From contig RQOL01000699.1 in assembly GCA_013076295.1 (NCBI GenBank), positions 5,022,001 through 5,086,000 on the forward strand: 64,000 nt of DNA. The letters run 5' to 3'. The notes beneath the pieces are model-generated. The model was not told the DNA's origin. It saw only the letters and a list, made by a program, of their open reading frames with translations, and searched no databases. The position numbers and the translations under genes were made by a program. Shown one piece after another: positions 98-59,500 of this stretch (position 1 is its first letter; each line of letters starts with the position of its first letter). The DNA comes from Sanderia malayensis. Taxonomy: Eukaryota; Cnidaria; Scyphozoa; Semaeostomeae; Pelagiidae.

Positions 98-169
98 AGA
101 TCTTACAGAGACTTGAACTCGGATCATTGGATTCAAAGTCCAAAGTGCTAACCATTACACCATAAGACG
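98..169 (-). tRNA. tRNA-Gln(TTG), degenerate
   Basis: Anticodon loop reads TTG. The first acceptor base is C and the 3' acceptor strand is TAAGATC, so the top pair is lost, and the T-stem 3' strand is CTCTG opposite CCGAG. Probably a decaying copy. Confidence 0.7.
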
Positions 170-232
170 GATATAAATGAGAAAACTAGAAATGTGAAAA
201 ACCAAATTTAACTTTGCTCGACGTTTTAATAA

Positions 233-304
233 AGATCTTACAGAGACTTGAACTCGGATCATTGGATTCAAAGTCCAAAGTGCTAACCATTACACCATAA
301 GACC
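233..304 (-). tRNA. tRNA-Gln(TTG), degenerate
   Basis: Same class as the unit at 98 (TAAGATC acceptor strand, CTCTG T stem) but with the 5' acceptor GGTCTTA intact. The T stem has a mismatch. Confidence 0.7.
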
Positions 305-367
305 GATATAAATGAGAAAACTAGAAATATGAAACACCAAGTTCAGCTTTGTTGAACGTTTTAATAA

Positions 368-439
368 AGGTCTTACCGAGACTTGAACTCGGATCATTGG
401 ATTCAGAGTCCAAAGTGCTAACCATTACACCATAAGACC
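368..439 (-). tRNA. tRNA-Gln(CTG), fully paired copy
   Basis: Acceptor GGTCTTA pairs perfectly with TAAGACC, the T arm is CCGAG-TTCAAGT-CTCGG and the anticodon is CTG. The body aligns well with animal tRNA-Gln. A good candidate for a functional copy. Only a weak T run (CTTTATT) follows the gene; a T4 run lies about 45 nt further on. Confidence 0.95.
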
Positions 440-502
440 GATATAAATGATAAAACTAGAAATGTGAAAAACCAAATTTAACTTTGCTCGACGTTTTAAT
501 AA

Positions 503-574
503 AGATCTTACAGAGACTTGAACTCGGATCATTGGATTCAGAGTGCAAAGTGCTAACCATTACACCATAAGACC
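503..574 (-). tRNA. tRNA-Gln(CTG), degenerate
   Basis: Anticodon CTG. The anticodon stem has a G-to-C change (gagtgc on the plus strand) and the T stem carries the CTCTG variant, so two stems are disrupted. Confidence 0.7.
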
Positions 575-637
575 GATATAAATGATAAAACTAGAAATAT
601 GAAACACCAAGTTCAGCTTTGTTGAACGTTTTAATAA

Positions 638-709
638 AGGTCTTGCCGAGACTTGAACTCGGATCATTGGATTCAGAGTCGAAAGTGCTAACCATTACAC
701 CATAAGACC
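638..709 (-). tRNA. tRNA-Gln(CTG), degenerate
   Basis: Anticodon CTG. One anticodon-stem mismatch (plus-strand gagtcg) and an A-C mismatch at the base of the acceptor stem. Confidence 0.75.
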
Positions 710-772
710 GATATAAATGATAAAACTAGAAACATGAAACACCAAGTTCAGCTTTGTTGAACGTTTTAATAA

Positions 773-844
773 AGGTCTCAACGAGACTTGAACTCGGATC
801 ATTGGATTCAAAGTCCAAAGTGCTAACCATTACACCATACGACC
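773..844 (-). tRNA. tRNA-Gln(TTG), degenerate
   Basis: Anticodon TTG. Acceptor strands GGTCGTA and TGAGACC mismatch at the fifth pair, and the T stem is altered next to the acceptor (plus-strand acgag). Confidence 0.65.
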
Positions 845-907
845 GATATAAATGAGAAAACTAGAAATGTGAAAAACCAAATTTAACTTTGTTGAATGTT
901 TTAATAA

Positions 908-979
908 AGGTCTTACTGAGACTTGAACTCGGATCATTTGATTCAGAGTCCAAAGTGCTAACCATTACACCATAAGACC
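908..979 (-). tRNA. tRNA-Gln(CTG), degenerate
   Basis: Anticodon CTG. One anticodon-stem mismatch (plus-strand atttgattc) and a T-stem C-A mismatch (plus-strand ctgag). Confidence 0.7.
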
Positions 980-1042
980 GATATAAATGATAACACTAGA
1001 AAAATGAAGCACCAAATTTAACTTTGTTGAACGTTTTAATAA

Positions 1043-1114
1043 AGGTCTTACCGAGACTTGAACTCGGATCATTGGATTCAGAGTCCAAAGTGCTAACCAT
1101 TACACCATAAGACC
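1043..1114 (-). tRNA. tRNA-Gln(CTG), fully paired copy
   Basis: Identical in body to the unit at 368: all stems pair and the anticodon is CTG. With that unit, one of only two copies without any stem mismatch. Confidence 0.95.
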
Positions 1115-1177
1115 GATATAAATGATAAAACTAGAAATATGAAACACCAAGTTCAGCTTTGTTGAACGTTTTAATAA

Positions 1178-1249
1178 AGGTCTTGCCGAGACTTGAACTC
1201 GGATCATTGGATTCAGAGTCCAAAGTGCTAACCATTACACCATAAGACC
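1178..1249 (-). tRNA. tRNA-Gln(CTG), near intact
   Basis: Anticodon CTG. The only flaw seen is an A-C mismatch at acceptor pair 7 (plus-strand ggtcttg). Confidence 0.88.
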
Positions 1250-1312
1250 GATATAAATGATAAAACTAGAAAAATGAAGCACCAAGTTCAGCTTTGTTGA
1301 ACGTTTTAATAA

Positions 1313-1384
1313 AGGTCTTGCCGAGACTTGAACTCGGATCATTGGATTCAGAGTCCAAAGTGCTAACCATTACACCATAAGACC
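1313..1384 (-). tRNA. tRNA-Gln(CTG), near intact
   Basis: Same body as the unit at 1178, with a single A-C mismatch at acceptor pair 7. Confidence 0.88.
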
Positions 1385-1447
1385 GATATAAATGATAAAA
1401 CTAGAAATATGAAACACCAAGTTCAGCTTTGTTGAACGTTTTAATAA

Positions 1448-1519
1448 AGGTCTTGCCGAGACTTGAACTCGGATCATTGGATTCAGAGTCCAAAGTGCTA
1501 ATCATTACACCATAAGACC
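1448..1519 (-). tRNA. tRNA-Gln(CTG), D-loop variant
   Basis: Anticodon CTG. The near-invariant D-loop GG reads GA (plus-strand taatcatt), which also alters the A box. Acceptor pair 7 is A-C. Confidence 0.75.
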
Positions 1520-1582
1520 GATATAAATGATAAAACTAGAAAAATGAAGCACCAAATTTAACTTTGTTGAACGTTTTAATAA

Positions 1583-1654
1583 AGGTGTTACCGAGACTTG
1601 AACTCGGATCATTGGATTCAAAGTCCAAAGTGCTAACCATTACACCATACGACC
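1583..1654 (-). tRNA. tRNA-Gln(TTG), degenerate
   Basis: Anticodon TTG. Acceptor strands GGTCGTA and TAACACC have two internal mismatches. Confidence 0.65.
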
Positions 1655-1717
1655 GATATAAATGATAAAGCTAGAAATATGAAGCATCAAACTTAACTTT
1701 GTTGAATGCTTTAATAA

Positions 1718-1789
1718 AGGTCTTACTGAGACTGGAACTCGGATCATTGGATTCAGAGTCCAAAGTGCTAACCATTACACCATAAGACC
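1718..1789 (-). tRNA. tRNA-Gln(CTG), T-loop variant
   Basis: Anticodon CTG. The T loop reads TTCCAGT instead of TTCAAGT, which damages the B box, and the T stem has one C-A mismatch. Confidence 0.65.
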
Positions 1790-1852
1790 GATATAAATGA
1801 TAAAGCTAGAAATATGAAACACCAAGTTCAGCGTTGTTGAACGTTTTAATAA

Positions 1853-1924
1853 AGGTCTTGCCGAGACTTGAACTCGGATCATTGGATTCAAAGTCCAAAG
1901 TGCTAACTATTACACCATATGACC
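1853..1924 (-). tRNA. tRNA-Gln(TTG), degenerate
   Basis: Anticodon TTG. The D-loop GG reads AG (plus-strand taactatt) and the acceptor stem has two mismatches (GGTCATA with CAAGACC). Confidence 0.65.
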
Positions 1925-1987
1925 GATATAAATGATAAAACTAGAAATGTGAAACACCAAATTTAATTTTGTTGAATTTTTTAATAA

Positions 1988-2059
1988 AGGTCTTACCGAG
2001 ACTTGAACTCGGATCATTGGATTCAGAGTCCAAAGTGCTAACCATTACACCATACGACC
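1988..2059 (-). tRNA. tRNA-Gln(CTG), near intact
   Basis: Anticodon CTG. One acceptor mismatch only (GGTCGTA with TAAGACC, pair 5). Confidence 0.85.
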
Positions 2060-2122
2060 GATATAAATGCGAAAACTAGAAATGTGAAAAACCAAATTTA
2101 ACTTTGTTGAATGTTTTAATAA

Positions 2123-2194
2123 AGGTCTTACTGAGACTTGAACTCGGATCATTGGATTCAAAGTCCAAAGTGCTAACCATTACACCATAAGACC
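2123..2194 (-). tRNA. tRNA-Gln(TTG), near intact
   Basis: Anticodon TTG with a perfect acceptor stem and one C-A mismatch in the T stem. This is the best TTG copy in the visible part of the array. Confidence 0.85.
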
Positions 2195-2256
2195 GATATA
2201 AATGGTAAAACTAGAAATGTGAAACACCAAATTTCATTTTTTGAACGTTTTAATAA

Positions 2257-2328
2257 AGGTCTTACCGAGACTTGAACTCGAATCATTGGATTCAAAGTTG
2301 AAAGTGCTAACCATTACACCATAAGTCC
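2257..2328 (-). tRNA. tRNA-Gln(TTG), degenerate
   Basis: Anticodon TTG. Changes in the anticodon stem (plus-strand aagttg), T-stem side (ctcgaatc) and acceptor (cataagtcc). The unit spacing is one base short here. Confidence 0.6.
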
Positions 2329-3810: not shown

Positions 3811-4732
3811 GTGTCAGCTACATTGCCTTCGTCCTGTGTACCATGTTTGAGTTTGCTCTGCAATAAACTATCACCCAAATAAAGCTTTATTCATTGAAGT
3901 TTGCTTTTTTAATTTTGCTAAAATAAAGCAAATTCGCATATGTTGTATATGTTGTTCGGTTTTATTTCTCCTTTCTTTAAAATATATCTCATTATGGAAA
4001 TAACCAAAGGATAAAAATATCTTGCCAATAAACATTTGGAAAACAATTATTTAAACAGGTCATTTGTTCTCGTGAGGTTAACGAAACTGTGCTTGTTTTT
4101 AACTCTTGCAAGAGTGAAAAAACCAAATTTAACGCGATCAATAAGCTGTTGGCGCACTAAAGCGGCGGTTCAATAAATAAAACCGACTATTTTGCTTGAA
4201 GTAAAATGAAAAATGAAAATCAATAGTTGAAGGAAAACATATGAAAATTTAAGTGTCTAAAATATTTAGAAAATGTAATTTCTGCGTCAATATATTGCCG
4301 GACTACACCAGACGTTGTGGGTCGTCGTTTTGTATGTCCCTCTGTTGTGGGTCACAGTGTTGTGTATCATCGTGTGAGGTTTCGTCCTGTGCTGTTGTGT
4401 CGTGTGCTATTACGTCAGGCTCATCTGGTGGCAACATATCGATGTCAATGTCCTCTAACTTGTGTTTATTGTCCTTTCAAAATCTTCCTCCATCAATCGG
4501 CGAGCCACTTTTTTTAATTGTGTCAATCTGGCTATGGTTTCCTTAGCTTTGGCTTTTGTTATTCTGTTTGAATTTCTGATCATTTCAAAACAGTGGTAAG
4601 CAACATCTGTATTCTTATCAAGGAATTGGCAGGTTCTATTCAGACGTGCAATATTGTCACTGTGCCAAAATGCAATAAATTAGATTGAAAGTAAGCAAAA
4701 TATTATTTGCGCTCATACTCCTTTGTATAGGC
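3811..4732. other. Spacer, no gene seen
   Basis: AT-rich spacer between the hAT-like element and the SINE. The one open frame around 4253-4546 is Cys/Ser-rich from a GTGT-rich stretch and looks like chance. Confidence 0.5.
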
Positions 4733-5021
4733 GCTTGGGGTCCCACCCATAGTATCACCCTAGACTCTTGGGTATTGCACTACCATGAGCTCTTGCGAGT
4801 ACATATCAGATGAAATCTAGGTAACTCTCGAGCATTATGGCGGAGCCACTGAAATCCATTGAGAGTTTTGTTTGCCTGAAAGCTTGACTCTCACCACCAG
4901 CCATCCAACATGCTGACCAGGTTATGCAACTGGTGCGGGGTTCGAGCCCGCGACTCTGGGATTCTGGGATTGATGAGTAGAATATAGTCACTCCGACGCC
5001 TTACCGCTAACCAGTCACACA
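4733..5021 (-). mobile_element. tRNA-derived SINE
   Basis: Read on the minus strand, a class-II (Ser/Leu-like) tRNA head starts near 5020: an A-box-like GTGACTGGTTAGCGG followed by TAAGGCG, then a B-box-like GCGGGCTCGAACCCCGC near 4935-4952. A non-tRNA body of about 190 bases follows. This is the standard SINE layout. The 3' end and target duplication were not fixed, so the outer boundaries are approximate. Confidence 0.65.
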
Positions 5022-5301
5022 TATATAGAGTTTCGTAAGTTCTAGTCTATGAAAGTTGTAAAGATATGACGCTTCAATTAATAAAAGTGGGCAGACGTGC
5101 GCATGCAAAACCACAGGGACGCAATGCAATGAGTCTACAGCCTGATACGTTTTCGTCTTCGACTCGAGGCTGTATGTTGTTGTCATAGATACAAATTGCA
5201 ACAACAACTGATGTCAAGGAAGCTCACAGCAGAGCAAACAGTTTGTTGGAAACAAAATTTATGTTAGTCACGTTTTGAAAAGCAGATTGAAGAAGTTGAT
5301 C

Positions 5302-13237: not shown

Positions 13238-14134
13238 ATTTATGCGCATTTTATTTCTTTGTTTCTAATAGGTCAGGTAATTTACTTTGAACATATATGT
13301 TAAGCTGTCTCAATACTGATAAACAACTAAGATGTTCTTTAATTCTGCAAGTAATTTTCCGTCATCTATATCTCTTAATACAGTGGTGTTTCACTACGTT
13401 GTATGTTTTATGTAGATACAACTTATAGATAAATCCAAGAAATAAACCAATTTACGGATATTTTTTATTTTTGACTTGACCTACATTCAAAGAACTTCCA
13501 GCAGAAAGAACGGTGTCCATTTTCAATATGCAAAGTTGACCTGAGAAAAGGCCGAAATTTGAAAGCGAAATGTTTAATGTAAGAGATGCAAACTCTAAGA
13601 TCTTGCATTGCTCTCAAGGCTCAGAAAACATGTCACGTTGCTTGTCCCTTTTGAAGCGACAATTACGGTAAGAAGTAACATCATCATCATTCGTCTCATC
13701 TGTTTTGACGTCATTGGCTTCTTTGCTACAGAATACAACTAACTCTGGCTTGTTGTTTGTTACAACAAGGGTTAATCTTTTCTCAAGAAATTGGGGGTTG
13801 AGCATACAGGCCCGAATTGTTTGAGTAGGAATAAGCTTTACGGTCGGTGATACCGATTTTATGTGCAAATTTCGGCCCACAGAACACGAAGTGTGAATTG
13901 GAGAAAGGTCAGCAACCCTGAGAAGGACGCCAATTAAAGAAGAAGATTAATTTCCTCTGGCAAGACTGAAAACTATTCAAAATTAGCTATTCCTGGGAAC
14001 TAGGTATCTATCCCGTTGTAATGCGCAATATGGCCCAGCTGGAATCTGAATCACATAGAACATTGGAATACCGATATGACATGTAGATCACTCATAAGAA
14101 GACTCGTGTTATTATTGCCACTGAAAGTGAGGTA
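13238..14134. other. Spacer between EFHC2 and U2
   Basis: Contains the EFHC2 3' end and a repeat copy at about 13793-13890. I see no gene. The minus-strand open frame across 13614-13880 has no recognisable motif. Confidence 0.5.
13793..13890. repeat. Copy A of a 90-bp repeat flanking U2
   Basis: Shares ttgagcatac-ggccc-aattg-ttga-taggaataagctt, then tacggtc-gtgatac-gattt and tgtgcaaattt-ggcc, with the copy at 15533-15620 in the same orientation. The pair brackets the U2 locus, which could mean an ancestral tandem U2 unit. Confidence 0.7.
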
Positions 14135-14283
14135 GTGGGCCGTCCATGGCGGTACTGCAATACCAGGACAACCCGTGTCTGGGGTGAAGCAAGCTTCAGA
14201 CCCACAGACCAATTCCAAAAATCAGTTTAATATTTGAGCACCCTTGGGTGCATATCAGATATTAAGCTGATAAGAACAGATAC
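14135..14283 (-). ncRNA. U2: U2 snRNA, 3' part of an interrupted gene
   Basis: Read on the minus strand from 14283, the sequence begins GTATCTGTTCTTATCAG, then CTTAATATCTGATA, an Sm-type site TGATTTTTGGAA, and the diagnostic 3' loop CCTGGTATTGCAGTACC. These match animal U2 snRNA from about nucleotide 36 to the end. The preceding base run is ten A residues, where the U2 5' third should be. That 5' third sits at 15265-15289, separated by a LINE fragment, so this copy cannot make a normal U2. The exact 3' end is approximate. Confidence 0.9.
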
Positions 14284-15264
14284 TTTTTTTTTTATCATTT
14301 TATATTATTTGGAGGTGCCCCCTGGTAAACAGTAGGTACACCTCCAACCCTCCATAGACATGGCAAGGGCGATAGGTACAAAAATCAGATTACTTACATG
14401 GATACATTAAATCAACGAAAACCAGGTTAATAACAAAGATATTATATATTCAAATGAAGTTTGTCATTTTCAACATGTGCTAAAATATTGTTTACTAAGA
14501 ATTGGCTAAGAGTTTTGCCGCCATCAATGGAAGCTGTGTTAAAAGCTATTGTTATCCTTTCTTTTAAAGCTTGACGAATGCGGTATATTACGGCTTTACT
14601 ATTATAGTGTTTGTGTTCGTATACCAATTTACATCTAGAAGTCCATAAGTGATAGCAAATAAGTTTAATTAAGTATAATAATAAAGGAACGTTCTTGTTA
14701 ATTACATAAGAAGGAAGCATGCGCAGAAGAACTATCTGAGAATTAAGGTCAAAAGCGTCACTGGTTAAAGATTGGAAAATGGTCTTAAAGTTGATCCAAG
14801 TTTCGATGGCAACAGGGCATTCAAGAAAAACATGTTCGATAATCTCCGGAGCTTTACAGCGTCTACAGAGTCCATATGTTTTACAGCCCCATGACTTGAG
14901 GTGACATAACGTTTTGAGAACGCAATGAGTAGTTTTCCACGCGACGTCATTCTCGTAGCCCGAGGATAGTCCGTAGAGGGTCGAAGACCACACAGACTTC
15001 TACGGAATGGAACGGGAGAAAATGATTATCTTCCAAAGCTCTTCGGAGCGAGGCACTAACTGCAGAGAAGTTAATATGAGTTGATACATTCTGTTAACGG
15101 TGCCAGGGCCGGTTCCAGAAAATTTTCTTCGCGGGGTGTAAGCTCTTATGTACCGAGCAATTTTAAAAAAAACCTTACCACAAAACCATGTAAACTTTCG
15201 TAACATAATTTTACCCCCCAAGAATTTGGCTAAGTTCTACTCGTTTGAGTAAAACCGAGTAGAA
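14284..15264 (-). mobile_element. 5'-truncated LINE inserted in a U2 snRNA gene
   Basis: About 980 bases lie between the two halves of the U2 gene, in the same orientation. The 3' end is a 10-A tail at 14284-14293 that abuts U2 directly. Inside is the C-terminal part of a reverse-transcriptase ORF from about 15221 to 14442, with a zinc-knuckle motif CRRCKAPEIIEHVFLEC (C-x2-C-x7-H-x4-C) and the preceding LSSGYENDVAWKTTH block typical of the region after the RT domain. One in-frame stop interrupts it at 15000-15002. Non-LTR elements that target U2 genes are known (the Keno family, which I recall as Tx1-clade). Assignment to that family is inference. Confidence 0.85.
14442..15221 (-). pseudogene. 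LINE ORF2 C-terminal fragment
   Basis: One frame of about 260 codons is open apart from one TAG at 15000-15002. The distal part (14993-14442) carries the CCHC-type motif given in the element entry, then a 110-residue tail rich in I/L/K. The RT and endonuclease domains are missing because the element is truncated at its 5' end. The protein is therefore a remnant without catalytic activity. Confidence 0.8.
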
Positions 15265-15274
15265 CTTAGCCAAA
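15225..15274. repeat. Inverted repeat at the U2/LINE 5' junction
   Basis: Arms tttggctaagttctactcg (15225-15243) and cgagtagaacttagccaaa (15256-15274) are perfect 19-bp complements with a 12-base loop. The outer ten bases of one arm are U2 nucleotides 16-25, so the other arm is an inverted copy of target sequence. Confidence 0.85.
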
Positions 15275-15289
15275 AGGCTGAGAAGCGAT
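15265..15289 (-). ncRNA. U2: U2 snRNA, first 25 nucleotides
   Basis: On the minus strand 15289 to 15265 reads ATCGCTTCTCAGCC then TTTTGGCTAAG, which is the U2 5' end with one G-to-A change at nucleotide 11. U2 nucleotides 26-35, including part of the branch-site pairing GTAGTA element, are missing at the interruption. The upstream promoter should lie just above 15289; I did not identify a PSE. Confidence 0.88.
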
Positions 15290-16575
15290 AACTAGCAAAG
15301 GTTCCCTATGGAAGGGTTAACGAGAGATTGCCCGGTCGCATGTGAGAACACGTTTTTGATTTGCAACGCGCATGCGTACATACGTAATTCTTGGTGTATA
15401 AGGACAATGTTGTGTTTCTGTTGAGCTTCTCATGTAAGGTGCTTTTTCGTAATTTTATCAAGTGACTCTCCACAATAGAAAGGTGCCCGTTTTGATCAGA
15501 GAATTGCCTTCAATTCAAGTTAATGTTATCGGGCGTTGAGCATACCGGCCCTAATTGCTTGAATAGGAATAAGCTTTTACGGTCAGTGATACTGATTTGC
15601 TGTGCAAATTTTGGCCGGTACCTCTGGCAGTAATAACCGGACTGGTTAAACTGCAGCCTAATGACTGAAAACATAATTTAAAATCAAACAAACATTAGAA
15701 GAGGACAGGGTGGGAGGGAGAAATGAAGCTTCTTCACTATGCTTATAACTCGGAATGATTAGAGAATCTGAGTTGACTCCACTAATTAATTATCGAAGCT
15801 GTTGCCGACGTAAATCTCTGGGTTAATCTTGCTTGGTCCCACCATCCCCGACTCGTGTGGGTGGATATAAACCGTGGGTTATTACAATGACAATTTCTAT
15901 CGTCCCTTAACTGTAAACAAAATAATCAGCGAAGATTTACTGCGCCCACACGGTGTGACTGTGTGATCAGCTTCTGGTTGACGAGCGGGTAGCTGTCTGC
16001 TGCAAAGTTGTGCAAATGGATAATTACTAAAAAAAGAAACGGGGAACCGAAATCATACTAGTATCTCTGAAACCGTTTGAAACATCCGAATTAAAAAGCT
16101 TGCAGGCAAAAGATGCAGGCAAAAGTTTGTGAACGATTTGGAATTTATAATGGCGGACACGAACCAAACCAAACCAATGACAATTTGTTTACAAGCAATG
16201 AACAATGATTTATTGCGCAATTATGTACGTACATATAACTAGCGGTTGAAAGTTTACTCAGTGTCCTTGGCAACCCTTAATACTTTTGCAACTCTTTTGT
16301 GTCTATTGTAATATTGTGTTGTATCATTAGTGATTGTGTACCTTTAAAGCTTGCACCTTCATTCTTGAATACAAACAATTTGATTTGACTTTGATTTGAG
16401 AGAAACAAAGATAAATGTGGACAGGCTTCCCAGGTCATATGCATTATCGATTACCATGGATACATTGGATGTCACATGGACGCAGTCACACACACAGAGG
16501 CAAAGGCCCACACAACAATCAATTATCAAGTAGAAATCAATTAGTTTACATTAAATTAAAAATAGCAGAATAAAT
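15290..16575. other. Shared upstream region of U2 (-) and KY-like gene (+)
   Basis: Divergent promoter region. It contains repeat copy B at 15533-15620 (see the copy at 13793). No other gene or RNA is recognised. Confidence 0.5.
15533..15620. repeat. Copy B of the 90-bp repeat flanking U2
   Basis: Same orientation as copy A at 13793-13890, and about 245-330 bases upstream of the U2 start on the minus strand. Confidence 0.7.
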
Positions 16576-52802: not shown

Positions 52803-53230
52803 GAGTAAATGCATTTCTAAAGGAGTGAGGAATTTGAGAGAATAACCATTTATCAAGAATTCTTTTAATTCTGATTTGAAAGTGCATGTGGAAATAGTTG
52901 TGAAATCTGTTTTTCTCTCAAATGACGACCTCTCTTTTATTTGGGATAAAATCGAAATGCAAAATTCACATGTTCAATTATTAGCTGCCTAGCTTAGAAA
53001 AATCATGTACCCCCGTTCGAGCCAAAGTTTGAACGTGTGATTGGGGCCTGGGGCCTGAAATCATGAACACTTGTAACACAAGAAAGAAACCTGAAGTGTG
53101 TTGAAGGCAAGTGTCGTTCGTTTGACCTCTTTCTTCCTCTTTTTTGTAATTTGATGCGAATCGAATTTCATTCAGGTTGAGTTTGTGCAGGTTATTAACC
53201 AACACTCGCCGCGTAAAACACGTTGTAATA
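52803..53230. promoter_or_regulatory. Upstream region of the first ACE first exon
   Basis: Sequence before the ATG at 53231. No clear TATA box or other element was identified, so the promoter role is positional inference. Confidence 0.3.
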
Positions 53231-54086
53231 ATGGCACAACTTGGCTTTGCTGCTTTTTTAGCAGCCTTAGCGTTTTTCACGACTGTGAGCGTAAATGGTC
53301 AGAAGGCTGCAGCTGAGAACTTTTTGAAAAAGTACAATAAGGAAGTGAGGCAAGTTGACTATGAGAGCGGACAGGCCGCATGGGTTTACAACACGAATTT
53401 GACTGATCACAATAGTGCACTGAGTGTGAATGCAAGCTTAAAATACTCGAAATATGCTGCAGCCGTGAGAGCCAATGCATCAAAGATTAATGTTCAAGGA
53501 CTCAGCTATGATATCCAGAGACAATTTAAGTTTATTCTATCCAGCGCAACAGCAAAGGATCCGAAGGTGGTCAAGGAAGTTGCCAATTTGGGCTCCAAGC
53601 TTGAAGCCCTTTACAGCAAGGCGTGCGTAAATGCAAAGAGTTCCGATGTGAAAACTGTGAAATTCAACGGAACGAAATGTCTCAGTCTTGATCCTGATCT
53701 TTATAAGATTATGAGAAAATCACGCGATTACAACGAGCTTTTGTTTGCATGGAAAGGATGGAGAGATTCAACTGGGCCGAAGATGAAGGCGACATACAAA
53801 GAGTTTGTTGACAAACTAAACATTGGAGCAAAAGACAACGGGTTTAAAGACTACGGTGAATATGTGCGATCTTGGTATGAAGTGGGAGATAACTTGGGAA
53901 AGATTGCTGAAAAACTATGGCTTGATTTGAAACCATTCTATCAAGAGTTACATGCCTATGTTAGGTTCAAATTGTCGAAGAAATATCCTCAAGTGAAAGA
54001 TGGCGAGCCTATTCCAGCCCATTTACTTGGTAACATGTGGGCACAAAGCTGGACTAATATTTACGACATCGTTGCACCGTTTCCAA
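53231..54086 (+). CDS. ACE-like alternative first exon A (or partial gene)
   Basis: One exon of 285 codons plus one base, starting MAQLGFAAFLAALAFFTTVSVNGQ, a clear signal peptide. It encodes the N-terminal, non-catalytic half of an M2-family peptidyl dipeptidase (motifs [49 protein letters not shown]). It ends TTT CCA A followed by gtaagt, the same phase and sequence as exon 1 of the complete gene at 56576. No HEXXH exon lies between 54087 and 56575. It could be spliced over exon B onto the shared exons at 58296, or be an orphan duplicate. The frame is fully open, which argues against old decay. Confidence 0.8.
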
Positions 54087-56575
54087 GTAAGTCATATGAA
54101 TTGATTTTATTTATTTTTATCTCATTTGTTTGTTTAGCTGCCCAACAAATGGCGTTTCTTCCAATTTTGTACGTATGAGCACGGTTGGTTTGTCGGCAGG
54201 CTAGAAGAATAAGCTCATTATTACGCCACAGGTTTTCACGGCCGAACGAAACAATACGTCACGTGCAGTTCTATTTCCCGCCTTCCGTTTTTGAGATACA
54301 AGTTTTCGCGCTCCAGCCTTCCCAGCTTCAAAATAATGGACGACCAGAAAAAAAAATTAATTGTTACTTTCGTAGCTCCAGCTTTGTTATCCCTTCCCGT
54401 GACATGCCTCGGCGTACAAAATTTATTACATTTATGGAATTTTCAACAAATTAAATACTTGGCAGCGTTAAATTGTCAAATAGCAAATTGTTTAACTATT
54501 TTGTGCGTGACACTGACAAGTGACACAAAATATTTGTGCTGCTGATAGGCTTCGCGTTTACACGATTGTTTTTGCTGGTCTGTTTTCTTTACTTGTCATG
54601 CGCAGTAGGCTTTTTCATTAATTTTTGGTGCCAAGTGGAATTCCTGTGCTGAAATGAATTACTTTCTGGATTTCTATGAAATTTAAGATCGTTTTTTTTA
54701 TTTCTGAAAGTTAAGCTTCGTCGTAAATAACAGAACATTGCTGAACGCCAAATCCAACATTTTCAAATTTCCTCGTTTGCCTGACTTTCTCACCTCTTTA
54801 TGAATCCGTACAAATATTTGTCCTGATTAGAAACATTTACACAGCACTGTACAAATATTTGTCCGCTCCAGTTGTCAAGTCGACCTCTTTCTAACAAGAG
54901 AAGTTTTTGCACGGCTATCAGGACCCATATTTGTACGGATAGACGATGATCTGCAAATCTTCGAATTACCCCCACTCCCCTGGAGGTTTATTTGCTTATT
55001 TGTTTTTTGGAGGTGCTTATAAATATGTTTGAAAAGGCCTGTATAAATAGATCTAACGATTATTTCGAAACTTTGTTCTGCATCACTTTTAAATTCATTG
55101 CCATATGACCGGCATCTTCAAGGGAAAGTATTGAGCTTGAAGGAATGTGGAGGTGTAAAAGCCTGATTATTAACAGCTCTTGGAATACTTGGCGATGCAA
55201 GCTCAGAACGTGATACAAGTCACGCAATTTGAGATTATATGCTCAGTAGCTGCAAAGTTTTCGAGCAGTATAAACATCCATGCCGATATTTCTGGAGGCT
55301 GTATAATAAATAAACAAGTGAATTTCAGTAACCATTATGTGTTGTATGTTTTTAATCCCAAGAGTTGCCACCAAGAGTACAAACAATAAAACAAAAACAA
55401 CGCGCGGCCCTCCCGGCCGGCCGAAAATTTCTTTGCTAAGGTATTTTACAGACCAGAAATTGTCGGAACGAAGCTTCCAAATTTGCCCACATTTTTGACT
55501 GTTGGAAAACGAGTCTCGATGTGCAGATAATCGAGACTCGTGCAACAAGTCTAGAGAGCCAGCCCCCTTTCTGGCCCATCAAATTGATTACATGAAGATG
55601 GCTGAAAAATATTAGGAATTTGGCGAATTATTATAAATTGAAAAATATGTGGGCCTGTGTAGAAGAAGAATTTGGAAGTGTATTTAGAGAGCTTTATTTT
55701 TAGTTTTGTATCAGAATAGAATAGAAATGTAAGAATTGTGGATTGCGAGAAGAATATTCAATTTTCGAAGGTTTTGAATGTAATAGAGGTCTGTTTTTGT
55801 TGTTCCAGAGACCAGAGAATTTCGTTCGAATTATTAAAAGTTTGAATCAAACAAATTTGACAATAATTATAGCGATTGTTATTTTTAACCTACTAAGAAA
55901 CTGGCGGGAATATTTAAACCTGCTCGTAAATGTGTGAACCGTATACGATACAATGCAATTCAATTCAAGTACCATCTTATTCATATTCAATGGTTTTGTT
56001 GAATACGGACTACAGCAGACAACTGGTTTCAATCAATGATTCAGTGAGCTTCAAGTAAAATAGTTGACAGGCATGTTGTTGCATTGTTTTCTTGCACAGA
56101 GGAGAGGGAGGAGTGAAAACAGTGACACAACATAGTCGTTGTTGATTCTGTTGCGCTGATACGACGATCGCAGTTAACCACAGTTGTATAAGCCAGCTTT
56201 TTTCTACATTGATGAAATGCAACATGTTACTCCTCAGGATTCATTTTATCCAGCGGATAAGATGGAGAGAAGCGAGTCGATAGATAAACTTTGAGCCTTC
56301 TTTTACCAAGGACACCCTGCAATCTTCTTGTTTGTCTATTTTCGACTGTGTGCCTATTTGTTCGATAATTGCAATGGCTATTCAGAAGTTTCTTTGTTGG
56401 TTTAAGCAAGCCACACAAGAATTTCGGTAGACTTCTTAGAGCTCTTTCATTAAGCTGATTGGTCACTCGTAATTCAAATTCGAATCCGCAATTCTTCGAA
56501 TCTCGAGTTGTTGAGTCGGGATATCAGCCACTGCATAAAATATTACCATCTATCATATTGCAACGTCGTTGTACA
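54087..56575. other. Region between the two ACE first exons
   Basis: No M2-peptidase exon is seen here. The phrase gtacaaatatttgtcc occurs twice near 54810-54870. Sequence before 56576 should hold the promoter of exon B. Confidence 0.5.
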
Positions 56576-59500
56576 ATGAATGCTATGCGAGGTTTAGAAG
56601 CTTTGTCGCTACTGCTAGTGTCTCTTTGGTTGACGCTGATCAATTGCCAAAAACAAGCAGCAGAGGACTTCTTGGTAGCATTCAACCGTGATGTGAGGAA
56701 TATGGATTACAAGACCCGGCAAGCTGCCTGGTTACACAAGACGAATCTTACAGATTACAACAGTGAGCTGAGTGTGAATGCGAGTCTGAAATTCGCAAAG
56801 TACGCTGACGATGTTAGAAGGAATGCGTCGAAAATTGATGTTAGGTCTCTTGATTATGATACCAAGAGACAATTCAAGTTGCTTCTTAGCAATGCAGCAG
56901 CCAAAGATGGCAAAGTTATTAAAGATGTTGCAGAGTTAGGTGCCAAACTTGAAGCACTCTACGGCAACGGGTGTGTGAATGCAACACCCAGTGACGTCAT
57001 GACCCTCCGGCTCAGTGGGCCGAAATGTCTGAGCCTTGAACCTGATTTGACTGACATTTTTGTGAAATCACGCGATTACGACGAGCTTTTGTTTGCATGG
57101 AAAGGATGGAGAGATTCAACTGGGCCGAAGATGAAGGCGACATACAAAGAGTTTGTTGACAAGCTAAACATTGGAGCAAAAGACAACGGGTTTAAAGACT
57201 ACGGTGAATATGTGCGATCTTGGTATGAAGTCGGAGATAACTTGGGAAAGATTGCTGAAAAACTATGGCTTGATTTGAAACCATTCTATCAAGAGTTACA
57301 TGCCTATGTTAGGTTCAAATTGTCGAAGAAATATCCTCAAGTGAAAGATGGCGAGCCTATTCCAGCCCATTTACTTGGTAACATGTGGGCACAAAGCTGG
57401 ACTAATATGTACGACATCGTTGCACCGTTTCCAAGTGAGTCATTTGGTCTCTGTTGTGTGGGTCGTTGTTTAACGACAATTGTTAGCTTGTATTTGACAC
57501 CTATTTTTTTACAGTATTGTTAAGTATGAGCGTGGTTGACTGGTGCACCCGCTTGAAAGTGTGAAGGCGCGTGCCAATACACGGTACGGGTAACATGCGG
57601 ACAAAAATGAGGCACCATGTCACCACGCTTGTTTTTATTATTATTGTAAACATAAAAGAGTAAATAAGAATGGAAAAATAGAGTTAAACAGTCAGTCAAC
57701 CTCAGACAGTTAAAGAGAAGACAAATGATACAGTGGCGGCCTTGGGCCAGCCGTACCGTACCGCACCTTTTCAACAAAAAGCTCGTTTTCTTTATTGTGA
57801 GTAACCTTAGCGTACAGCACCATAGCAAGCGAGACATCGCCTACCGAACTACTGATTACCGTCCCCAGCTCTAGGGCGTATTCATAAAGAAACACCCTAT
57901 GACATTTTCAACTTCCATTGTTGCAAATTGGTTGCTTTGATTTGTTTGCCGTGTAAAGATTGAGGAGAGAAAATTGTGTTTCCCAATAGCTACTATATCG
58001 TAATAAAATTCCGCGATAATGTTTCGTCATGTTTATAACATGTGATAAACCATTGCATGAGGTTGTGCGTTGGAGAGTGTTAGTATGGACTGGCTCGTGA
58101 GCGCCAACGTAATTATTATTGTCATGACGAGCATTTTGATGGTGGTGATTACTATGATTATGTTATGGTTTTAATTTCAATATGAACGTGAAACCCATTT
58201 GTTTTTAACCAATACTATAAAAACGAGGCCATTCTAAGTAACTTTCCAAGTGATTTATCTTATTAATGTGCTTGTCTTCTTTTGAATTGTTTCAGATGAA
58301 CCAAAGTTGGACGTTACTCCCAAATTGGCATCGATTTTTAAGAATAATGTAACTGGTGTTTTCAAGAAAGCCGAAGATTTCTTTGTTTCAATCGGATGGG
58401 AGAAGCTTCCTGCAAGCTTCTGGACAAAATCGATGCTCGAAAAACCTAAAGATGGGCGCAAAGCTGTTTGCCATGCTTCTGCTTGGGATTTTGCTATCAA
58501 CAAAGATGTCCGGTAAACACTATACTGCTTTATCCATTATGTATTGCTTCTGAGTATTGTATGATAACTGGAGTATTGATTTTTTATGCGACCAGATTAA
58601 TTTTGTTAATTACGAGAGCAAAATAATTGCAGTGGCTATTTTCATTTGCCCATATTTGTTGGGGTTAAACAACCCTGAACCGAGGACCACAATGTAAACA
58701 GTTGTAGCCACCAGCCTCCAACCCAGGCACATTGTCAGGAAAACGACAAGGGGCCTGGGTTCGAGGCTGGGGGTTTAAAAAAGTGACGGTAAACGCGACG
58801 TTTCGGAAGTAAATGATTACTTTTCATTTGGTGATCATGTGATTATACCGTCGTCACTATTTACCTTGTTATCCTCATCTTGCGGGAAAATCTCGTCAAC
58901 TTCATGTAGATTGATCTGTTCGATTCCCTTATTGTGAGATCAGAGTGCCATCCATGCTCAGTCAGCTTTACCAGGATCTCACCAGCACTGTTCCACATTC
59001 TTGCAACTACATTTGACCAGGCTCTGAAAGTAGAATATTTGACGAAAGTCTAGATTCCCGTGAATACTCGTTGTATTTCCCTTCACTTTTCTAACAATGA
59101 ATGCGGTTTTTTATAGATTACAATGTTGTAGTTTTGAATGATTTTCTATATGGTCTACTTTTATTTGCAGAGTGAAGATGTGCACCAGTTTGAACCAGAA
59201 TGATTTCATCACGATTCACCATGAGCTAGGCCACATCTACTATTATTTGTTCTACTGGGATCAACCATACGAGTATCGTACTGGAGCCAACCCAGGATTC
59301 CACGAAGCAGTTGGTGATACAATCGCTCTGTCTGTCGAAACACCACAGCATCTTTACAAAGTTGGCCTATTGGACACTTTACCAAATAACACCAGTAAGT
59401 AAATGACAGATTTCTGCAACGATTTTAATGAGGAATCTAACCATTGCTCGAAGAAGTTTTGCAATGATATTGCGATTCAGCGCATTCTTGATTATCCGAG

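Follow-up and report, generated by a model that had tools for sequence, protein, structure and literature searches.

A U2 snRNA gene on the minus strand of the window (the whole 64,000-nt stretch of DNA analysed here) is interrupted by a LINE. The inserted element is very probably an old copy of a non-LTR retrotransposon that is specific for U2 genes and of the APE type (Tx1/Keno-like), and that arose by the mechanism proposed below, taken as a whole. The first-pass annotation had interpreted the locus as the product of a U2-targeting element, and sequence comparison across the assembly (184 Mb, 918 contigs) supports this interpretation, which for the most part holds. All nine 3' ends found for this family (family A; the window and eight others) adjoin U2 nt 36, and none of the nine was found in random DNA outside U2.

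The interrupted U2 gene in the window

Both U2 pieces can be read directly on the minus strand, as had been reported: nt 1-25 lie at 15265..15289 and nt 36 to the 3' end at 14135..14283. In this orientation the locus consists of ATCGCTTCTCAGCCTTTTGGCTAAG (15289-15265), 981 nt, and then GTATCTGTTCTTATCAGC... from 14283. The 3' piece is matched to U2 by Rfam (minus strand, 14130-14308, 117 bits) and is 98.3% identical to the intact paralog L031. An earlier estimate of about 980 bases between the pieces is refined to 981 nt, and the loss of about 10 U2 nucleotides to exactly nt 26-35, as judged against 15 intact U2 genes in this assembly. Alignment to U2 places the 3' junction at nt 36, where the poly(A) tail, 10 nt long (14293-14284, minus strand), does adjoin U2 as claimed, the next base being G36. 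Across the genome, a run of eight A leading straight into GTATCTGTTCTKATCAG is counted 14 times, against 0 in a reversed control, which argues that the junction is not a product of chance.

Upstream of the tail, the 3' 819 nt of the LINE (14284..15102, minus strand) correspond to family A nt 4272-5118 and are 91% identical to copy L012 by BLAST. Within them lies the predicted ORF2 C terminus with its CCHC motif, a 185-aa frame (14442..14999, minus strand) that stops at the family A ORF2 stop; its zf-RVT knuckle (PF13966) scores 25.2 bits (E 2.7e-5), slightly below the Pfam cut-off of 27.5. A 3'-terminal RNA hairpin with the tip CUG-N5-CAG (here CUG-UUUAC-CAG) is predicted at 14309..14347 (minus strand), and family B, described below, has one likewise. 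At the far end of the insert, 22 nt of the LINE 5' end (15243..15264, minus strand) remain on U2 nt 25, a junction common to L009, L011, L012, L013, L046 and L070. Because these 22 nt are still joined to U2, the copy is regarded as internally deleted and not as simply 5'-truncated. It appears to have started out as a full-length-type insertion and then to have lost about 4.2 kb internally; in the order of events that we favour, this loss and the gain of a fold-back and a MITE would have come after integration.

The arms of the fold-back (15225..15274, minus strand) form a palindrome that is perfect over 19 nt and 95% over 22 nt; a 12-nt loop separates the perfect arms, which span U2 nt 16-25 and the LINE 5' end as an inverted copy of both. 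Next to it, at 15103..15224 (minus strand), is the rearranged right half of a multicopy MITE with ends GGAACCGGCCCTG, whose other copies measure 203-218 bp and have 8-bp flanking duplications. The view that the insert is LINE throughout is therefore ruled out, query nt 40-162 being MITE: it stands for 14284-15102 and for the 22 nt at 15243-15264, and fails for 15242-15103. When the whole insert was searched against the genome, 40 best of 107 candidates were scored, and the MITE made up 31 of the 40 matches listed. Thirteen MITE copies were read (L052-L064); CAGGGCCGG and CCGGCCCTG ends are both present in 12 of them, 203-218 bp apart, with an exact 8-bp flanking duplication in 9 of these 12. 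We take this MITE, with its CAGGGCCGG termini, to be hAT-like.

Each flank of the window U2 gene (left, 500 nt plus U2 1-25; right, 500 nt starting at nt 36) was compared on its own with the 15 intact loci. For both flanks the best matches are the intact genes L031 (C345) and L034 (C655:5190726), the latter about 154 kb from the window U2 on the same contig and strand. The left flank is 84.6% identical to this pair over 260 nt and the right flank 98.3% and 97.1% identical to L031 and L034, respectively, over 175 nt that include 3' flank; beyond these lengths the alignment ends. By this comparison L031 and L034 are identified as empty-site paralogs of the window U2, and since one intact pair best matches both flanks, the locus is read as an insertion and not a REARRANGEMENT.

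Two blocks upstream of U2 resemble promoter elements. A palindromic, promoter-like GCATGCGC block lies at 15367..15377 (minus strand) and a PSE-like block, CTCACATGCGACCGG, at 15332..15346 (minus strand), 43-57 nt upstream of U2 nt 1; most other loci have CCCACGTGCGACC or a close variant there, from which the window differs by two changes. Interrupted and intact U2 genes alike carry the CCCACGTGCGACC-like block at about -55 and the GCATGCGC-type block further up, both being absent upstream of L027 and L044 among the loci listed. These blocks are putative snRNA promoter elements, the name PSE being given from position. An 88-nt direct repeat (87%) lies on both sides of the U2 locus (window 13790-13877 and 15528-15616); it is absent from the other loci fetched, except L001, which is the window's own DNA. 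Elsewhere in the window there are 17 tandem tRNA-Gln genes (98-2328, minus strand; 10 with CTG and 7 with TTG anticodon) at a period of about 135 bp, and two adjacent open frames (53150-54178 and 56459-57523, plus strand) that have a stretch of more than 100 aa in common and are presumably peptidase M2 (ACE-like) paralogs. A search for COX1 gave no match. An ADAT2 exon hit an EukProt gene at 100%, and every organism named among the 120 hits listed (of 1332) is an animal, so that the host is taken to be one.

Two LINE families at the U2 genes

When 803 nt from the LINE 3' end served as query, ten candidates came up and all were scored; nine are copies, the window among them, and the tenth is an internal piece of 60 nt. 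The complete family A element is about 5.1 kb long (5129 nt in L012), and five full-length copies are present (L009, L011-L014). ORF2 is an open frame of 1187 aa in three of the five and is split in two in L009 and L013; ORF1 has 413 aa from the first ATG in L012, and family A ORF1 carries CCHC knuckles. The domains of ORF2 are an apurinic-type (APE) endonuclease, RVT_1 and a zf-RVT zinc knuckle. The endonuclease is N-terminal, as in Keno (PF03372 at residues 29-251 of the L014 ORF2, 59.8 bits). Matches in the PDB are to the L1 endonuclease and APE1, and among solved structures the best relative of ORF2 is human LINE-1 ORF2p with 269 bits, versus 64 bits for R2. A 49%-identical relative bears the name Transposon TX1; among viral contigs no relative was found.

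Truncated copies of family A end at differing points (2596 and 1005 nt aligned), and at two further loci only the 5' end is found: L046 (U2 1-25, A 1-62 and the U2 3' part) and L070 (at a contig end). The window, L009, L012, L014 and L046 each have different upstream DNA, and thus represent five separate target genes. Between any two of the eight other copies the difference is 0-0.85% (820-830 nt of the 3' end), and such near-identity indicates recent activity of the family. From each of these eight the window LINE 3' part differs by 5.2-6.0% substitutions, which marks it as an old relic of a recently active family.

A search of the genome with the A protein, in which the 39 best of 779 candidates were scored, revealed A-related internal fragments, 80-94% identical to A ORF2, on C655, C691 and C303, away from the listed U2 genes. 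The strictness of family A for U2 refers to its 3' ends only. Two of the fragments (C303:2591209-2591544 and 2497667-2498002) are open over 120 aa, are 88-89% identical to A ORF2 residues 875-986 with equal limits, and lie outside the listed U2 loci. A relative (84%) lies beside the U2 gene of L009. Other LINE ORF2 matches, 28-44% identical to A, are found on C786, C807 and C586, one of them with a 1194-aa open frame.

A second family, B, is a 5.0-kb APE-type LINE with the same 3' site in U2. Its identity to A is about 52% over ORF2 residues 1-669 and 31% in ORF1. Of the 13 B loci, 7 lie within U2; at 2 the poly(A) is accompanied by just 12 nt of U2, another 3 are located elsewhere than in U2, and 1 has lost its 3' end. 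Family B is not strictly U2-specific: 9 of its 12 3' ends touch U2, and those of L065, L066 and L069 do not (L069 is 83% identical to B). In four copies (L024, L050, L051 and L068) B nt 1338 is joined to B nt 4813. These ORF1-only derivatives are without nearly all of ORF2 and keep the 3' end beside U2 sequence; they are possibly non-autonomous elements.

A protein tree was built by a quick method and rooted at the midpoint. Of its 49 rows, 47 were taken from the 120 listed hits, and the other two are A and 668 aa of B. It pairs A with P0001/P0002 and B with P0016, all within one group of 20 rows (SH-aLRT 100) that also includes P0005, named Transposon TX1; A and B are not sisters on this midpoint-rooted tree.

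The search for U2 itself gave 45 matches listed (46 of 14910 candidates were scored, so that the number is a lower bound), and after the halves of interrupted genes had been merged by hand there were at least 38 loci. These comprise 16 uninterrupted genes (L027, L031-L045), 18 interrupted genes (10 by A, 8 by B) and 4 loci at which no LINE was read alongside (L017, L021, L023, L029); about half of the U2 loci found (18/38) are thus interrupted. One more A locus (L070) and one more B locus (L068) fall outside the list of 38. At L017, L021 and L023 (C712, C447 and C713, respectively) the first ~29 nt of U2 are replaced by similar unrelated sequence, with no poly(A).

Junctions and a proposed mode of integration

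At the 3' junction of both families the poly(A) is followed by GTATCTG, or by GCATCTG in L014 (T37C). The 5' junctions fall into two types. Among A copies that reach the element end, 7 of 8 join U2 1-25 to TTCTAC (the window, L009, L011, L012, L013, L046 and L070), and the eighth, L014, joins U2 1-28, with A26 and not T26, to TACCCG. In family B, U2 1-33 is joined to ATAGAG in all five copies that show B nt 1 within a U2 gene (L020, L022, L024, L028 and L030/L051). Full-length A copies are accordingly without U2 nt 26-35 and B copies without nt 34-35. Three truncated copies have target duplications: nt 36-45 (10 nt) in L010, whose upstream piece is U2 1-45; nt 36-44 (9 nt) in L015, with U2 1-44 upstream; and nt 36-49 (14 nt, one U2 mismatch allowed) in L018, a 5' inversion of B with U2 1-49 upstream. 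Filler of about 4-5 and 13 nt is present at L010 and L015, respectively. Hallmarks of target-primed reverse transcription (TPRT) are therefore at hand in the poly(A), 5' truncation, 5' inversion and target duplications (L010, L015, L018).

We propose that the ORF2 endonuclease would nick the U2 bottom strand beside nt 36, and that reverse transcription would proceed from this nick into the element RNA at its poly(A) end, which the hairpin would mark (TPRT). The terminal hairpin with the CUG-N5-CAG tip has z-scores of -2.7 in A, -2.7 in the window copy and -2.2 in B, and -0.6 in the older relative L069. ORF2p probably recognises the RNA by this hairpin. If reverse transcription stopped early, the cDNA could be end-joined to a top-strand break at nt 44-49, which would explain the duplications of 9-14 nt and the filler in two copies. 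This rule for truncated copies rests on three of them, two with filler, and two truncated B copies do not fit it: in L019 the upstream U2 piece is reduced to about nt 1-2, and the first base of L050 is close to B nt 90, with non-U2 DNA next to it. At L016 the 5' side is an assembly gap.

If the parent U2 gene's promoter had initiated the RNA, a cDNA extended to the RNA 5' end would include U2 nt 1-28 in family A or 1-33 in family B. This U2 head could then join the target by homology, which would account for full-length junctions with no duplication and with nt 26-35 or 34-35 lost. The full-length junctions thus suggest a U2-headed RNA joined by homology, the main argument being that truncated copies duplicate target sequence and full-length copies of the same family delete it. 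The A26 of L014 is also expected, as the crossover could fall on either side of base 26, although the A26/T26 difference is a single base and back mutation could be an alternative source. Whether family A and B are U2-headed LINEs in this full sense is in our estimate an even matter: their RNA would be made from the snRNA promoter of the host U2 gene and start with U2 nt 1-28, full-length cDNA would join the next U2 via a head of about 28 (A) or 33 (B) nt, and two modes of 5' joining would be sorted by whether the head had been copied. Each full-length insertion would then keep a working snRNA promoter directly in front of it. snRNA promoters normally give non-polyadenylated RNA, and the poly(A) tails of the element copies are a point against transcription from the U2 promoter. 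No title or abstract beginning on a U2-headed LINE was among those listed for the open-licence literature, searched under other, more general terms.

An alternative that we consider unlikely, if conceivable, keeps the element U2-specific and its RNA starting at the first base of the element; the 5' junction of full-length copies would stem from a top-strand cut upstream of the nick, and hence from a target deletion. The identical deletion of nt 26-35 recurs among A copies as such a cut would have it, and PMC4640811, by Kojima and Jurka, gives an explanation of this kind for Utopia deletions in Phytophthora. However, truncated A copies show the opposite stagger, with duplications of 9-10 nt, so that two cut sites sorted by copy length would be needed, and the breakpoint of family B at the same target is a different one (nt 33).

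The position of the nick can also be read otherwise. It might lie at U2 nt 38/39, as for Keno and Utopia, if the additional GTA were copied from RNA that reads through into U2, a reading we regard as doubtful. The 3' flank of KenoDr1 is given as TCTGTTCTTATCAG... in PMC6136364, the U2 flank of Utopia begins at nt 39 in PMC4640811, and the duplications (nt 36-45) are compatible with either nick. The RNAs of two diverged families would, however, both need poly(A) plus a constant GTA, and in eight A copies with tails anywhere between 14 and 25 A long, the GTA is constant save for T37C in L014.

Joint spread of LINE and U2, in which gene conversion or array amplification would have carried one or a few insertions from one U2 gene to another, is improbable as a general explanation. 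Array-type U2 loci do have near-identical flanks, several B copies there have identical junctions, and L051 and L068 have one short U2 stub and one following sequence in common; a single insertion may have been duplicated to give some of the copies in arrays. Amplification alone, whether in tandem or as arrays, is nevertheless disfavoured by the A copies at five U2 loci with differing upstream DNA, by the varying ends of truncated copies and lengths of tails reported above, and by the duplications in two truncated A copies. A rearrangement that brought pieces of two unrelated U2 genes together on either side of a random LINE fragment is practically excluded despite the internal rearrangement of the window copy (fold-back, MITE), because empty-site paralogs match both of its flanks and eight other copies have the same 3' junction.

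Relation to known site-specific elements

Site-specificity of LINEs, and U2 targeting by APE-type elements (Keno), are already known. Keno, of the Tx1 clade, was reportedly treated by Kojima and Fujiwara in 2004. In the present genome young near-identical copies occur along with an old relic, target paralogs with an empty site are present, and a second family uses the site, and the choice of U2 by a LINE and the joining of its 5' end become directly testable. With about half of the U2 loci interrupted, the system also bears on how the host maintains its U2 supply.

The comparison draws on PMC4640811, PMC6136364, PMC8869645 and PMC3414825. In the first two, Keno is described as APE-type and U2-specific, and as known from frogs, fish, lancelet and hydra. 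Families A and B resemble it in being APE-type LINEs of an animal that insert in the same small region of U2 (9/9 A and 9/12 B 3' ends), a likeness of enzyme and target. They differ in the 3' junction, which is at nt 36 and thus 3 nt upstream of the nt 39 (TCTGTTC) reported for KenoDr1 and Utopia; the flank runs from nt 36 as GTATCTG in 9/9 A copies, one with T37C. As published elements may be trimmed differently, this weakens the statement that family A is a Keno and not the statement that it works like Keno. A further difference from Keno is the coexistence here of two diverged U2 families.

Utopia is an RLE-type LINE at the same U2 site as Keno, according to PMC4640811, which also describes low-copy survival of Utopia/YURE/NeSL elements inside U2 genes, interrupted U2 genes outnumbering intact ones in some hosts, and a U2 sequence around the insertion site that is highly conserved across eukaryotes. 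The ORF2 enzyme is for this last reason a candidate for studies of site-specific insertion in laboratory cells. Families A and B share with Utopia, YURE and NeSL the U2 target region, 3 nt upstream of the reported Utopia start, and low-copy survival inside U2 genes. Unlike Utopia, which has an RLE and generally one protein, family A has an N-terminal APE endonuclease in ORF2 and a separate ORF1; no RLE domain was among the Pfam matches, and identity with Utopia is ruled out. Having an APE endonuclease instead of a restriction-like one, A ORF2 is classed as Tx1/Keno-like.

Families A and B are like R2 in using one multicopy target gene (28S for R2), in the defined 5' junction of their full-length copies and, presumably, in being cotranscribed with the target. 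R2 differs in its RLE and in its 5' ribozyme, which cuts the 28S cotranscript (PMC3414825). A search blind to any undescribed ribozyme class, over the 1.4-1.5 kb that surround the 5' end in a single copy of each family, found no ribozyme above cut-off; the A region gave a sub-threshold hammerhead well within the element (15.4 bits versus a cut-off of 34, E 3.3) and the B region no match. Should the RNA indeed be U2-headed, a Pol II snRNA promoter would feed a polyadenylated LINE mRNA, in parallel to R2 and 28S without an evident ribozyme. With LINE-1 and Tx1L the two families have in common the ORF2 order of APE, RT and zinc knuckle, the poly(A), 5' truncation, 5' inversion (L018) and target duplications; they are set apart from these by family A, whose 3' ends are strictly at U2.
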